A DNA stretch of 43,546 nucleotides, taken from contig JAUZOQ010000020.1 in the NCBI GenBank assembly GCA_030706385.1, positions 1 through 43,546 of the forward strand, written 5' to 3'. The stretch is from Bacteroidota bacterium. GTDB taxonomy: Bacteria > Bacteroidota > Ignavibacteria > Palsa-1295. The position numbers and the translations under genes are program-made. The first letter of the stretch is position 1. Every line of letters starts with the position of its first letter. Shown piece after piece: positions 9,668 to 16,808 of the stretch. The notes below the pieces were generated by a model. That model had not been told where the DNA came from. It made no database searches and saw only the letters and a program-made list of their open reading frames with translations.

Positions 9668-11338
9668 CTACTTAGTCAACGTCATCGATCGTGTCTGAGT
9701 CTTTCCGTTAAAAGCGATGCGGCAATAGTACGTACCACTGGGAAGTGCCAGGCCGTCGAAGATGACCTGATTCTCTCCACGGGACCGGTAACCATTAACT
9801 AAGGTCTTCACAAGTGAGCCGCGTCCATCGAATACTTCCAACAGCACCGGGCCACCTTCCGAAAGCGCAAACTTAATTGTGGTTATGCCTGGGAAGGGAT
9901 TCGGTTGATTCTGATACAAATTAAATGCAAGGCTGCCGTTCTGGGAGACACTCATGGGCACGGGATTTCTAATGATGTTCTGCATAGTCCCTGATCCATT
10001 AACCGGGAATTTGAATCCATCGGTCGGTGACTGGAAATCCGAAACAGAAGTGAACTCGGGCTTATTCAAAATCGACTTGCGCAAATAGTCATCAATTCCG
10101 AACCATTGTGTAAGAATCGAAGCATACACCTGGCGGAAATCGAATTGCTCAACGAGGTCACCGTACACATCAAGATCTGCGGCATCCAGTTTCGGATTGT
10201 GCCCATATACCTCGCCGTTAATCTCTTTGCCGAAAAGGAACATCGGAGCTGAAGTACCATGGTCCGTTCCAAGACTTCCGTTCTGGTTCACGCGGCGGCC
10301 AAACTCAGAGTATGTCATTCCGATGACATTATCGGCGACGTTCATATTTTCAATATCCTTTTGAAATAGGGATATTGCTTCGCCAAGATATGTATGGAGC
10401 AAACCCTGACCCTGTGTGGGATCTTTCGTATACTGGCTTACGTGTGTATCGAATCCTCCGAGAGAGACGAAATACACGCGGGTCTGTAAGCCCGCTTTAA
10501 TACACCATGCCACTTTCTGCAGTTGAACGGCAAGAGGATTGGTTGTTGGATAGGTAACGGTATTTTGTGTTGCACCTGGAAGAGCAAAGACATCCTTAAA
10601 CCGCTTCCCGTATTTATCCGATTGTGTCAGAATTCCCCTGACAAATTGCAGTTCATTGCCGGCATTCGTATTGGGTGGCGTGTCATCGGCATAGTTCTGA
10701 GCGGCATTATATTTGCTCGGGTCGATCACTGCAGAGGCCATTACCGATCTGGAACCTTGAAACACCAGTGATGTCGAATAATCAATCGCAATTGCCAGCG
10801 GATCAGGAGAGCTGCCGATGTCGATCGGGTAATTTTCCGGCACTTGGGTTTCGAGATATCGTCCCATCCAACCGGTGAACACAACCAGTTCAGAATCACT
10901 CGCGGAATTCCAAATATCCGTTGCGCGGAAATGCGAGCGGTTCGGGTTCGAATAACCTACGTTTTGCAAGACGGCAAGTTTGCCATCCTTGAACATATTA
11001 TAAAAATCCGTGCCAAGTGGAGGATTCAATGCAAGATCGCCCCGCAATTGAAATGGTGTCAGCAACGCCTTTTCCGATGGGGTATAATATCCGACATCCT
11101 TCCGGTTGATATCGTACTGCGGGTCCTGAAACGGAATAACAGTGTTCAACCCGTCATTACCACCTTGTAGGTTGATCAGGACGAGAACATTGTTCGAATT
11201 GCCCTGCGCATTGAGAAGGACATCGAGAGCCGGCGAACGGCCAAAGGCTTTTCCAGAAAAGAGTCCGCCGATACTAAATGGAACAGCTGCAGCTGCAACG
11301 CCAAGCGGTAAGCTCTTGATGAAATCACGACGTTTCAT
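9668..11338 (-). CDS. DUF1501 protein with twin-arginine leader and T9SS C-terminal sorting domain
   Basis: A 556-residue secreted protein. The leader has a twin-arginine motif, KRRDFIKS at 2-9, a hydrophobic stretch and a cleavage region near AFG (31-33). The DUF1501 domain (sulfatase/alkaline-phosphatase-like fold) carries QGGNDGLN (58-65), GFDTH and the SEFGRR...GTDHGTSAPMF block in the middle. The last 85 or so residues are a T9SS type A sorting domain (NQPNPF, then LPSGTYYCRI near the end), so the mature protein should reach the cell surface. A Tat leader implies folding, possibly with a cofactor, before export. DUF1501 and DUF1800 genes are typically paired in many bacteria but the activity is unknown. 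It lies 16 bases after a DUF1800 gene and ends at a terminator. Confidence 0.92.
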   Translation of the reverse strand: MKRRDFIKSLPLGVAAAAVPFSIGGLFSGKAFGRSPALDVLLNAQGNSNNVLVLINLQGGNDGLNTVIPFQDPQYDINRKDVGYYTPSEKALLTPFQLRGDLALNPPLGTDFYNMFKDGKLAVLQNVGYSNPNRSHFRATDIWNSASDSELVVFTGWMGRYLETQVPENYPIDIGSSPDPLAIAIDYSTSLVFQGSRSVMASAVIDPSKYNAAQNYADDTPPNTNAGNELQFVRGILTQSDKYGKRFKDVFALPGATQNTVTYPTTNPLAVQLQKVAWCIKAGLQTRVYFVSLGGFDTHVSQYTKDPTQGQGLLHTYLGEAISLFQKDIENMNVADNVIGMTYSEFGRRVNQNGSLGTDHGTSAPMFLFGKEINGEVYGHNPKLDAADLDVYGDLVEQFDFRQVYASILTQWFGIDDYLRKSILNKPEFTSVSDFQSPTDGFKFPVNGSGTMQNIIRNPVPMSVSQNGSLAFNLYQNQPNPFPGITTIKFALSEGGPVLLEVFDGRGSLVKTLVNGYRSRGENQVIFDGLALPSGTYYCRIAFNGKTQTRSMTLTK

Positions 11339-11354: not shown

Positions 11355-13097
11355 TTAACAAAGTTGGTAATCTGCGAGTAAAAGTATTTGGTTTGCGATC
11401 TGCCTGAGTCCGGAAAGTTTCTCGGAATCGTTTAGAGATGCCCACTCATAGGTGTTCGGTGGAAGCTGGCTCTTCACGTACTGCAAAGCAGTGGCCGAAG
11501 GCGGTTGGGCGCACAAGTAATTGGCTATTTCACGCAAAAGATCATCGAAGGTGCCGTCGTAATTAGACAATTGCTTGCCCCAACTGGTGACCATATAATC
11601 CCAAAGATCGATCGATTTGTACGAATTGCCGTAGCCATCCTGACCGGTAGCAGGCAGTGAACCCCCTATCAAAAGCGGAGTTGCGATCCTCACATTCCGG
11701 TATGGCAAGGTGACGGTACTCATCCAATTGTGATAACCAGGCCATCCCTTGACATTAGGCGGATTTAGCAGTTCCTGAGATCCGGCGAATGCGAGATCGT
11801 ACAACGTGCCGGCATACAATTCCCCATCGATCGGTGCACCAGGATTGTAAAGTGGGATGTCGAAGGCCCTTAGGACACCAATGAGATATTCGTAAGGCGA
11901 TTTGATCTGCGATCCGATATTCACTTCATCAAAGAAATGCTCGCTCTTCAGAAGAAGGCTAAGAACATCTTTCACATTCCAGTTCACTTTGAACGTATCG
12001 GCAAGTTGTTGAATGATTGCTCTCTGAGCATCGGTCGTAATCTGGTGGTAGACGAAATATTGATAGAATTTTGAGCACATGAACCATGCAATTGCATCCG
12101 CACGCAGCTCGAATATATGATCGATAAGATCCATATCCATGGGTACTCCGGCGGATTCAAGATTGTAATTGCGAAGCTGTCCGTCGTAAATCTTTTGCGG
12201 AGAGCTATCGTGACGGTCGGCATAGAGGGCTACCATCATTTGCGGATCTTCCATATGGATCCGCCAGCCTGTCAGAACGTGCGCGATCGCTTCGACGTCA
12301 TCTTGGGTATAGTTCGGATTTCCATTCTTATCGAGCGGCCCCATCGTGAACAGCTCTTGCAATTCCCGGGCGTAATTTTCGTTCGGAGCAATTCCCGCGT
12401 TCAAGATCCCATCGAGATAAAAGAGCATGGCCGGTGCCACGGTAATATCCTTGACCATTTGCTTAAAATTGCCCCAGGCATTTTGCCTCATATAGGTGAG
12501 ATGGGCATAGAGCATCTGAGGAAAGTAATCTTTTCTGGATTCAATAACAAAATGATTCATCCAGAACAGAGCCATTTTTTCACGCAGCATGACTTCAGGC
12601 TGATGCATTTGCACTGCCCAGTGTGCGCGAATTTTCATATCCGCGTGCAGATAATCAGCCTCAGCAACTTTCGTATCGGTGTACACCGCTGAAAGCGGTA
12701 CGCGAAGCCATGACGGAGGCTGCGGAGGTTCTTGATCGGCTCTTGTTGGGATCGGAGGAACTGTTGGTCGAGTAAGCAAAGAATTATTAAGAAGCGCATC
12801 AACGGTCTGGCCTGGGGTTTTCCCCGTCTGCGGATCGAGAATAGCTTTTAACTCACTTTGCGATGCTCCGAAACCCGCGCGTCGATATAAATGATTGATC
12901 GTGTGTACATCCCAGGGCTGAGCGGAAGTCGGCACCCATTCATTGAGTCCGGTCGAAGTTACAACATTCCGATCACGGTTATTCGTAGATAGAAATAACG
13001 GGGATTCTTGGTGTTGGGCAGATGCTCCGAAAGAATCGGCGGCAATAGCGGTACCGGCAGTAATGCCAATGGATTTCAAAAAGGAACGTCTATTCAT
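11355..13097 (-). CDS. DUF1800 family protein, paralogue 1 (nearest DUF1501)
   Basis: A 580-residue exported protein of unknown function. It starts MNRRSFLKSIG, a twin-arginine-type leader, followed by a hydrophobic stretch ending around ASA. Family blocks are all present: INHLYRRAGFG (about 66-76), the WMNHFVIESRK block near 180, NENYARELQELFTMG (about 240-255), the DDVEAIAHVLTGW helix, and NPPNVKGWPGYHNWMS near 440. It ends LLADYQLC. No T9SS tail is present, so unlike its DUF1501 partner it may stay periplasmic or depend on that partner. A GA-rich ribosome-binding region (AGAGGT) lies upstream of the ATG. With the DUF1501 gene 16 bases downstream it forms the classic DUF1800-DUF1501 pair. 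Confidence 0.92.
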   Translation of the reverse strand: MNRRSFLKSIGITAGTAIAADSFGASAQHQESPLFLSTNNRDRNVVTSTGLNEWVPTSAQPWDVHTINHLYRRAGFGASQSELKAILDPQTGKTPGQTVDALLNNSLLTRPTVPPIPTRADQEPPQPPSWLRVPLSAVYTDTKVAEADYLHADMKIRAHWAVQMHQPEVMLREKMALFWMNHFVIESRKDYFPQMLYAHLTYMRQNAWGNFKQMVKDITVAPAMLFYLDGILNAGIAPNENYARELQELFTMGPLDKNGNPNYTQDDVEAIAHVLTGWRIHMEDPQMMVALYADRHDSSPQKIYDGQLRNYNLESAGVPMDMDLIDHIFELRADAIAWFMCSKFYQYFVYHQITTDAQRAIIQQLADTFKVNWNVKDVLSLLLKSEHFFDEVNIGSQIKSPYEYLIGVLRAFDIPLYNPGAPIDGELYAGTLYDLAFAGSQELLNPPNVKGWPGYHNWMSTVTLPYRNVRIATPLLIGGSLPATGQDGYGNSYKSIDLWDYMVTSWGKQLSNYDGTFDDLLREIANYLCAQPPSATALQYVKSQLPPNTYEWASLNDSEKLSGLRQIANQILLLADYQLC

Positions 13098-13193: not shown

Positions 13194-14942
13194 TTAACAA
13201 AGTTGATAATCGGCAAGAAGCATTAGTGCAGTAGCCATCCCTAGGAGCGCCTTCACCTTTGTTGAATCATCTAGTAGATTCCATTCATAGGTTTGAGGCG
13301 GAAATTGACCCTTAATATACTTCAATGCTGTGGCAGAAGGAGTATGGGCGCATAGATATGTTCCAAGTTCGCTCAGCATATCGTCAAATGTGCCTGAGTA
13401 ATTGTCGAATTGTTTTCCCCATTTCACCAGATCGGCCTCCTGAGGAAGATTGATCGGAAGGTGCGCGTTGCCATATCCATCGGTGCCGACAGCTGGCAGC
13501 GACTTATTGCTGAAGACCAGCAGTGTTTCAATTATTCCTCTGTATGGTAAGGTCGTTGTGCTGATCCATGAATGGTAGCCTGGCCATCCCTTCACATTAG
13601 GCGGGTCAAGAAGAATTTGAGATCCTCCGACAGCGTAAAAATAAAGTGAACCCGCGCTAAGCTCATTTATCGGAATCTCAAACGTGCGAAGTAAACCGAT
13701 AAGATGATCGTATGGTGATTTTATCTCCGCTCCTATGTTGGCTTCGTCAAAAAAGTGAGCACTTTTTAGCAGAGCAGAAAGCACAGGTTTCAGCTCCCAG
13801 TTACTCGACTTGAACAAATCAGCCATCGCCCCGATAACAGCCTTCTCGGAATCTCCGGAAACGTCATGATAAACAAAATACTGATACAACTTTGAGCAGA
13901 TATACCAGGCGATCTGATCACCCCGCTGATCGAAAATATGATCGATAAGATCCATATCCATCGAAGCTCCTGAGGCAGTTAAGTTGTACTGCCGTTTCAC
14001 TCCGTCATAGATCTTCTGAAATGACGAATCATGGCGAGTGACCTCGTATTTCGACGGCAGAACATCCGGCGGAGGAGCTTGCGCATCGACAGTCCAACCT
14101 GTCAGAGCATGAGCAATCCCTTCGACATCATCCTGAGTGTAATTTGGATTGCCATTCTTATCTACGACTCCCATCGTAAACAGCTCTTGCAATTCTCGGG
14201 CATAATTCTCATTTGGCGCCGAACCTGCATTGAGAACTCCGTCGAGATAGATAAGCATCGCCGGAGAAATAGTAACATCAGATACCATCTTCTTGAAATT
14301 CCCCCATGCATTTTGCCGGAAATAGGTCAGAAGACTATACATAGACTGTGGATAGTACACTTTTTTCGCCTCAACGACGAAATGATTCATCCAGAAAAGC
14401 ACCAGCTTCTCGCGCAGCATGACTTCAGGCTGGTTCATCTGCACTGTCCAATGGCTACGAATTTTCATATTCGCATTTGCATAATCTGTCTGGATCTTTA
14501 TGGGATCGTTATAGACATATGGAGGCACGCGCAGCCATGCCGGCGGTAATGATGGGGTTTTTCCGTCATCGGCATTACCAGGGATAGGTGGTACCGTAGG
14601 CTGAAGAAGAAGAGAATCCCTCAGCAAATTATCGACAACTTGCGAAGGTGTTTGTACAACTATACCTCTGGTAATCGCATAGATTTCTCCTAAGGTCGCC
14701 CCGAATCCCGCACGACGGTAGAGATGATTGATAGTATGCACATCCCAAGGTTGGGTGGTGGATGGATTCCAAGGTGAGAGATCGGAGGATGCGATTGTTT
14801 CACGACTTCGCGATGGTTGTCTTAAGTGCTCAGAGGGGATTCCGGATGCAACATGTGTAGTGGCAAATGAGTCCGATGCTTCGGATATGGCGGCACCGGC
14901 TGCTGTGACACCGAGAGATTTCAGGAACAAACGTCTATCCAT
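13194..14942 (-). CDS. DUF1800 family protein, paralogue 2
   Basis: A 582-residue paralogue of the neighbouring DUF1800 genes, sharing the leader MDRRLFLKSLG (twin-arginine type), INHLYRRAGFGA, WMNHFVVEAKK, NENYARELQELFTMG, DDVEGIAHALTGW and DPPNVKGWPGYHSWIS, and ending LLADYQLC. The start ATG at 14942-14940 is preceded by GAGGA with a 5-base spacer, a good ribosome-binding site. There is no T9SS tail. The 96-base gap to paralogue 1 could hold a separate promoter, but no terminator is visible between them, so co-transcription with paralogue 1 and DUF1501 is likely. Function is unknown; three such genes beside a single DUF1501 gene suggest local duplication and divergence. Confidence 0.92.
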   Translation of the reverse strand: MDRRLFLKSLGVTAAGAAISEASDSFATTHVASGIPSEHLRQPSRSRETIASSDLSPWNPSTTQPWDVHTINHLYRRAGFGATLGEIYAITRGIVVQTPSQVVDNLLRDSLLLQPTVPPIPGNADDGKTPSLPPAWLRVPPYVYNDPIKIQTDYANANMKIRSHWTVQMNQPEVMLREKLVLFWMNHFVVEAKKVYYPQSMYSLLTYFRQNAWGNFKKMVSDVTISPAMLIYLDGVLNAGSAPNENYARELQELFTMGVVDKNGNPNYTQDDVEGIAHALTGWTVDAQAPPPDVLPSKYEVTRHDSSFQKIYDGVKRQYNLTASGASMDMDLIDHIFDQRGDQIAWYICSKLYQYFVYHDVSGDSEKAVIGAMADLFKSSNWELKPVLSALLKSAHFFDEANIGAEIKSPYDHLIGLLRTFEIPINELSAGSLYFYAVGGSQILLDPPNVKGWPGYHSWISTTTLPYRGIIETLLVFSNKSLPAVGTDGYGNAHLPINLPQEADLVKWGKQFDNYSGTFDDMLSELGTYLCAHTPSATALKYIKGQFPPQTYEWNLLDDSTKVKALLGMATALMLLADYQLC

Positions 14943-14977: not shown

Positions 14978-15064
14978 TTACAACGATTCGTTAGTGGGAT
15001 GGTTTCGAATGACACCAACGATCTGGCCAAAAATACGAACATTTTGAGGTCGAACTTCATGATA
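14978..15064 (-). pseudogene. 3' remnant of a lexA-like (S24 family) gene
   Basis: Immediately after, and in a different frame from, the end of DUF1800 paralogue 3, the minus strand encodes YHEVRPQNVRIFGQIVGVIR plus nine residues, then TAA at 14980-14978. This resembles the last strands of LexA repressors, where a 'VRP..V.I.G.VVGVIR' block closes the S24 peptidase domain. Nothing else of the gene remains: the frame is closed by TAA some ten codons upstream, inside the DUF1800 coding region, and no LexA DNA-binding helix-turn-helix is visible upstream of that gene. The remnant supplies the TGA stop of the DUF1800 gene (the bases of CAT GAA read out of frame). The call rests on pattern recognition over about 25 residues, so it is moderate in confidence. 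Confidence 0.55.
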
Positions 15065-16787
15065 GCTGGTAGTCAGCCAATAGCATTATTTCATTTGCCA
15101 GTTGTCGAAGAATTCCGACTCTCTCGCTCGTTGTGATCGTCTGATCGCTCCATTCGTAACTAATGTTCGAAGCGAATTTTGATTTGACATGGGCTAAAGC
15201 TTTCGCCGATGGAGTATGAGCACAGAGATATGTGGCGATCTCGTGAACCAGATCGTCAAAAGCCCCGGCATAGTTTGTAAATGATTGCCCCCATGAGGTT
15301 ACCATTCCATCCAGCAAGAAGATCGGATAATTGTTTTGGCCATAACCATCGACGCCTTCAGCGGCAATATTCCCACCTATAAGTAAGGCCGTTTGTATAT
15401 ATGTCTCGCGGAACGGCAACGTCGTTGCACTGATCCAAGTATGGTAGCCCGGCCAACCTTTTACATTCGGAGGATCGAGCAGCTCTTGCGATCCCGCAAG
15501 GGCGTAGTTATAGAGTGATCCCGCCATGAGTTCCCCTTGCCCATCCGAAGTGTTTTCCGGGAGTAGAATTTCAAATGGCCGTAACAAACCGATGATGTGT
15601 TCATAAGGAGACTTGATCAATGCTCCGATATTTTCCTCATCAAAAAAATGCGAGCTATTGAGAAGCGCAGATAATACCGGCTTTAGCTCCCAGTTGCTTG
15701 CCCGTAACAGATCGGCCATCTCAGAAATGACAGCTTGCTCTATCGCCCCCGAAGTATCGGCATAAACGAAATATTGATATAATTTCGTGCAAATAAACCA
15801 GGCGATCTGTTCGCTTCGCTGCTCAAAAATATGATTGATGACATCTTTGTCCATGGCATCGCCGGAAGCCGTCAAATTATACTGGCGCTCAATATTGTCA
15901 TAGATTACTTGTTTGCTCTGATCATGCAAACCACTATTATAGATCGCCGGCAAAATCTTAGGCGATTGTTGGGTCGTGTCTACCGTCCAACCCGTTAGAG
16001 CATGCGCCAAGCCTTCGACGTCGGACTGAGTGTAGTTGGATTTGCCATTCTTGTCGAATGCTCCCATCGTGAAGAGCTCCTGTAATTCCCTTGCGTAATT
16101 TTCATTCGGTGCCGATCCTGCATTCAATATTCCGTCAAGATAAATTAGCATTGCGGGCGACGTTGTCACATCGGCAACCATCTTCTTGAAATTCCCCCAC
16201 GGATTCTGCCGAAAATAGGAAAGGTAGTCATAGATGCAGATGGGATATTTGACTTTTCTCGCCTCGATGACGAAATGATTCATCCAGAACACTGTCAATT
16301 TTTCCCGAAGCATTGTCTCCGGTTGACACATCTGAACTGTCCAGTGTCGCCGAAGCTCCATGGCAGCATTATTGTATGTGGTTTCCTGCCTTGCCTTTTG
16401 GTAAAGGTCAGTACCGGTATAAGGCACAACGTCCTTCCACTGGAAAGCATACCGAGGATCTGCGGGAAGATAATTTCCGGTAAGGAGTTTGTCGTCGAGA
16501 AGATCATCGATCAGTTCAGACGGAGTTTTCGCAACAGCTGCATTGATCTCCGAAAGGGTTGCACCGAAACCTGCCCTACGGTAGAGATGATTTATCGTAT
16601 GCACGTCCCATGGTTGTGAATGGGAGGGAATCCATGGAGATAGGTCGGAAGAGGCAATTGTCAGACGGCTGCCTTCGGTCTCCGAGTGAAAAAAAGATTT
16701 GGAAAATTTTTCCGCAGCAAACGCATTCGATGAAAAAATTGCCGGGACGGCAAAACTTGCCGATTTCAGAAATGAGCGTCTATCCGT
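15057..16787 (-). CDS. DUF1800 family protein, paralogue 3, with ACG at the start position
   Basis: A 576-residue paralogue (if read from ACG at 16787-16785) of the two downstream DUF1800 genes. The complete leader is present in frame: T-DRRSFLKSASFAVPAIFSSNAFA, aligning with MDRRLFLKS and MNRRSFLKS of its sisters, but the initiation ATG is ACG. An AGAGGA ribosome-binding site sits 6 bases upstream, as in the sisters. The next conventional start in frame is GTG at 16604, inside the conserved DVHTINHLYRR block, which would delete the export signal. All family blocks follow: HLYRRAGFGA, WMNHFVIEARK, NENYARELQELFTMG, DPPNVKGWPGYHTWIS. It ends LLADYQLS rather than LLADYQLC. Either ACG is used as a rare start, or this copy has recently lost its start; a sequencing error is also possible. 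Confidence 0.85.
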   Translation of the reverse strand, partial: TDRRSFLKSASFAVPAIFSSNAFAAEKFSKSFFHSETEGSRLTIASSDLSPWIPSHSQPWDVHTINHLYRRAGFGATLSEINAAVAKTPSELIDDLLDDKLLTGNYLPADPRYAFQWKDVVPYTGTDLYQKARQETTYNNAAMELRRHWTVQMCQPETMLREKLTVFWMNHFVIEARKVKYPICIYDYLSYFRQNPWGNFKKMVADVTTSPAMLIYLDGILNAGSAPNENYARELQELFTMGAFDKNGKSNYTQSDVEGLAHALTGWTVDTTQQSPKILPAIYNSGLHDQSKQVIYDNIERQYNLTASGDAMDKDVINHIFEQRSEQIAWFICTKLYQYFVYADTSGAIEQAVISEMADLLRASNWELKPVLSALLNSSHFFDEENIGALIKSPYEHIIGLLRPFEILLPENTSDGQGELMAGSLYNYALAGSQELLDPPNVKGWPGYHTWISATTLPFRETYIQTALLIGGNIAAEGVDGYGQNNYPIFLLDGMVTSWGQSFTNYAGAFDDLVHEIATYLCAHTPSAKALAHVKSKFASNISYEWSDQTITTSERVGILRQLANEIMLLADYQLS

Positions 16788-16793
16788 AAGAAT

Positions 16794-16799
16794 TCCTCT
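16794..16799 (-). promoter_or_regulatory. ribosome-binding site AGAGGA in front of the ACG codon
   Basis: AGAGGA on the minus strand lies 6 bases before ACG (16787). The sister gene at 14942 has GAGGA 5 bases before its ATG. The retained site argues that initiation originally occurred, and may still occur, at this position. Confidence 0.6.
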
Positions 16800-16808
16800 A
16801 TATGATTA

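Follow-up and report, generated by a model that had tools for sequence, protein, structure and literature searches.

Genes encoding DUF1800 and DUF1501 proteins are known as a pair from a predicted operon, in which the DUF1501 partner is described with a twin-arginine motif (PMC5122149). Among bacterial start codons other than ATG, GTG and TTG, infC uses ATT and Streptomyces sigR uses GTC, both natural, built-in starts of low efficiency that are repressed by IF3 (PMC5472188), and point mutants of Listeria rsbW with ATA or ATT at the start still make reduced amounts of protein (PMC13068326). A study of close genome triplets followed 61,358 ancestral AUG starts, of which 363 had switched to GUG, 113 to UUG, two to CUG and one to AUU; ACG is absent from its list of switches, but the study used annotated starts, where ACG would be hard to see (PMC5622118).

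The tandem DUF1800 locus and its first gene

The window, i.e. the whole analysed stretch of 43,546 nucleotides, contains a locus that resembles the known DUF1800-DUF1501 operon in its PF08811 match, its twin-arginine (RR) leader and the adjoining DUF1501 gene, but departs from the usual form in harbouring three tandem DUF1800 copies instead of one, with ACG at the start of one copy. A divergent rmuC-like gene (17111, plus strand) is followed by the three DUF1800 copies in tandem, then by DUF1501 and a YbbR-like gene; the labels rmuC-like and YbbR-like are our own reading of the translations and not the outcome of a profile search. The following features are referred to below:

16806 to 16808, minus strand: in-frame stop TAA closing the frame upstream of ACG (sequence)
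16794 to 16799, minus strand: Shine-Dalgarno-like AGAGGA, with the six-base spacer ATTCTT to ACG (sequence)
16785 to 16787, minus strand: ACG codon in the column of the conserved initiator methionine (sequence, alignment, tally of DUF1800 starts)
16710 to 16787, minus strand: predicted twin-arginine export leader TDRRSFLKSASFAVPAIFSSNAFAAE (RR-x-F-L-K, hydrophobic stretch and A-F-A read by eye; aligned with the sisters)
16602 to 16604, minus strand: GTG at residue 62, the first standard in-frame start, which would remove the leader and keep the domain
15057 to 16787, minus strand: DUF1800 gene (PF08811), 576 residues if begun at ACG, first of the three tandem copies
13194 to 14942, minus strand: sister DUF1800 gene, ATG start, MDRRLFLKS
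11355 to 13097, minus strand: sister DUF1800 gene, ATG start, MNRRSFLKS
9668 to 11338, minus strand: DUF1501 gene, the usual operon partner of DUF1800 (63.5 bits, cut-off 27)

The gene carrying ACG, designated DUF1800 paralogue 3 in the earlier note, is the one transcribed first in the operon. It matches the PF08811 profile with 296 bits (cut-off 26.1) over residues 67 to 542, the sisters scoring 273 and 267 bits. No relative of its product was found in the PDB by sequence, and a structure model has a mean pLDDT of 60, too weak for a fold search.

DUF1800 also neighbours a DUF1501-like gene in the three closest relatives of the locus. In G001 (same genus) and G009 (same family) a single DUF1800 gene lies between an rmuC-like gene and DUF1501, and in G002 a single copy adjoins DUF1501. 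The spot between DUF1800 and DUF1501 varies between species; in G001 it is occupied by a repeat-rich ORF of 714 residues (L039:2828-4972), where the window has its extra DUF1800 copies. The DUF1501 protein of the window (9668-11338, minus strand) has both a twin-arginine-type leader, MKRRDFIKS, and a sorting tail for the type IX secretion system (T9SS; TIGR04183, 24.6 bits, cut-off 23). This combination is noteworthy because proteins secreted by the T9SS are generally assumed to use Sec for passage across the inner membrane, and by eye the same pairing is present in the G001 homologue.

On its minus strand the window reads TAA (16808-16806), TCA TAT AGA GGA ATT CTT, ACG (16787-16785) and GAT AGA CGC TCA TTT CTG AAA. 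The earlier note had placed ACG exactly where the two sisters have ATG, which is correct in coordinates, sequence and frame, as are the closing TAA and the AGAGGA six bases ahead of ACG (16799-16794); motif and spacer together represent a suitable Shine-Dalgarno placement for ACG 16787. For the pattern AGGA-N6-ACG-(A/G)AN-(A/C)G the chance expectation is 0.09 occurrences in the window. The leader indeed matches those of the sisters codon for codon (TDRRSFLKS compared with MDRRLFLKS at 14942 and MNRRSFLKS at 13097). By eye and by alignment with the sisters, TDRRSFLKSASFAVPAIFSSNAFA displays the N-terminal RR-x-F-L-K, the hydrophobic region and the A-x-A-like cleavage site of Tat substrates, and if translated from ACG the product would be a predicted Tat export substrate. 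Masking of the start by RNA structure was dropped, the local fold around ACG being ordinary (z -0.77).

Between TAA 16808 and GTG 16604 there is indeed no ATG, GTG or TTG, with the correction that ATT, a start codon in table 11, occurs at 16793-16791; situated one base from GAGG it is badly placed for that site and was rejected as a start. An origin of the N-terminus from a frameshifted or overlapping upstream ORF was likewise rejected, the 46-codon ORF at 16906-16766 (minus strand), which overlaps ACG in another frame, being probably a chance occurrence, as the DNA upstream of the gene has no match in the genus relative. Judged from the sequence, no standard start codon accounts for the conserved N-terminus, and a standard gene caller would, as predicted, begin at GTG 16604, the first ATG, GTG or TTG in the frame, and lose the leader. 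No second copy of the start region was found in a scan of viral contigs.

Start codons of the relatives and state of the coding body

When the ACG gene is aligned with both sisters and eight further relatives, ACG falls in the methionine column ahead of the twin arginine. A tally drawn from the DUF1800 loci fetched comprises 34 distinct genes whose RR leader can be recognised, the ACG gene included. The codon at the aligned start is ATG in 27 of them and TTG in one, and five have ATG four or five codons upstream of it; only the window gene lacks a start codon both at the leader and ahead of it, all 33 others having one. The TTG, the only other departure from ATG among leader-bearing relatives with their start at the aligned position, belongs to a DUF1800 gene (L036:806-2545) in a MAG labelled Candidatus Eisenbacteria and 43% identical to the window copy. 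Comparison with orthologues in related genomes, a check proposed in the earlier note, yields ATG-GAT-AGA-CG at the aligned start of the single-copy genes of G001, G002 and G009, all at the same or a similar locus, and ACG in none of these other species; within the genus the comparison covers two genomes. As the comparison shows, ACG replaces the true, conserved initiator codon. In the tree the closest partner of the sister at 14942 is the G001 copy (support 90/95). Among the three sisters the ACG copy sits on the longest branch (0.56, the others 0.43 and 0.23), and the tree gives it no firm exact place.

The pattern AGGA-N4-9-ATG-(D/N)-R-R-x-F-(L/F) has 55 matches in 294 genomes of the class. 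With ACG in place of ATG six matches are found, the window gene among them, compared with ten for the control codons AAG and AGG (16 for AVG minus the six for ACG). The five other ACG matches are followed by just 12-81 open codons and are not genes, so a Shine-Dalgarno motif, ACG and RR leader ahead of a long frame occur together once in the 294 genomes, in the window gene. A wide distribution of ACG-started RR leaders in the class was rejected, since the six matches do not exceed the control level and five are not genes; ACG is not a recurring start in RR-leader genes of the class, and the window case is unique in the sample. Within the own genome, 30 readable loci carry the RR pattern, and eight distinct frames longer than 80 codons start shortly before the motif: six with ATG, the ACG gene, and an unrelated frame with AAA. 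Because every one of the 33 remaining leader-bearing DUF1800 genes possesses a start and the combination of Shine-Dalgarno motif, ACG and RR leader occurs only once in the 294 genomes, ACG at the leader start is not attributed to chance.

Counting its stop, the ACG frame extends over 577 codons down to 15057, uninterrupted by stop or frameshift, and the frame is open through all three tandem copies. The gene retains 152 of the 164 residues that are invariant in its five closest relatives (0.93; sister 1 0.90, sister 2 0.97), the start methionine being one of the twelve lost. Where it differs from the sisters, it does so mainly at third codon positions (0.32/0.22/0.61 at positions 1/2/3 compared with sister 2); in the dN/dS analysis dS is saturated. 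Given 577 open codons and 152 of 164 invariants, frame disruption and relaxed constraint as signs of a pseudogene are absent from the coding body, which is not decaying. Since an old loss of the start should have brought decay and none is seen, the intact body favours a change of very recent date, an ACG that is still in use, or an error.

Origin of the ACG codon

The earlier note had offered two readings, that ACG initiates or that the start has just been lost with the rest intact. The ACG at a conserved initiator and the intact remainder are borne out; the comparison does not choose between the two, nor does it exclude an assembly error.

The explanation preferred here, to which we assign about even chances of being right, is a real T-to-C change at the start of an intact gene, with little or hardly any exported product arising from ACG and the sisters covering for it. 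It builds on the observed position of ACG, the conservation of the start and the integrity of the gene. The ancestral start would have been ATG at 16787-16785, and, as the most economical account, one T-to-C transition, recent or tolerated, would have turned it into ACG, either in the genome or in the strain dominating the assembly. Ribosome-binding site, leader and the 576-residue protein would all still be in place. Ribosomes should still be able to bind at AGAGGA and initiate with fMet at ACG, albeit inefficiently, and output of the exported protein would fall sharply or almost cease, with the two ATG-started sister genes covering the function. Three points in this account we infer: the base is real, ACG initiates weakly, and the sisters make up for it.

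The main rival is an error of assembly or consensus, or an admixed minority strain, in which case the real genome would have ATG and the gene would be normal. We consider this rather unlikely: well-covered short-read assemblies seldom contain consensus substitution errors, and no other damage is seen along the three open tandem copies, even if the whole anomaly amounts to a single-base difference in a gene without decay and the source is a draft genome of 161 contigs and 96% completeness, with a profile typical of a metagenome bin.

It seems improbable that ACG is a working, naturally maintained weak start through which the output of this copy is held low compared with that of its two sisters. 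The suitably spaced Shine-Dalgarno motif, the intact leader and the strong constraint on the protein are consistent with such a function, for which rare starts with a low-dose role offer a precedent (infC ATT, sigR GTC; PMC5472188); however, ACG is present in no relative, the same-genus relative being single-copy with ATG, the 294 genomes hold no other real ACG-started RR-leader gene, and a literature search retrieved no natural bacterial ACG start.

Translation now beginning at GTG 16604, yielding a cytoplasmic DUF1800 protein of 515 residues without leader, is highly improbable: although this codon is the first standard start in frame and would leave the domain whole (Pfam match from residue 67, predicted helical core from residue 62), the leader is intact where it would be free of constraint, and GTG 16604 is an unlikely natural start because it has no good Shine-Dalgarno motif (CCATGGGAC) and encodes V62 within WDVHTINHLYRR, a stretch whose amino-acid sequence is conserved in the sisters and G001.

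The anomaly itself is clean and well supported, and its cause is likely an ordinary one. Should the base prove real and ACG be in use, the gene would provide an unusual natural bacterial ACG start and show gene callers cutting export leaders off. If it is a start-loss allele, a duplicate gene would have been caught at the first step of inactivation, still intact, and if it is an error, a single base in a draft genome alters the predicted location of a protein.

Comparison with known non-canonical starts

In having ACG in place of ATG, the gene resembles the ACG starts of chloroplasts and plant mitochondria. In plant organelles many ACG starts are edited to AUG by C-to-U RNA editing, a process we know of at no bacterial start codon. 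With infC, sigR and rsbW the gene shares a codon other than ATG, GTG or TTG at the true start of an intact gene, but those three are backed by experiments, whereas the present case, with the codon ACG, is known from sequence alone. The non-canonical start of the rsbW mutants arose by point mutation, whereas the starts of infC and sigR are built in.
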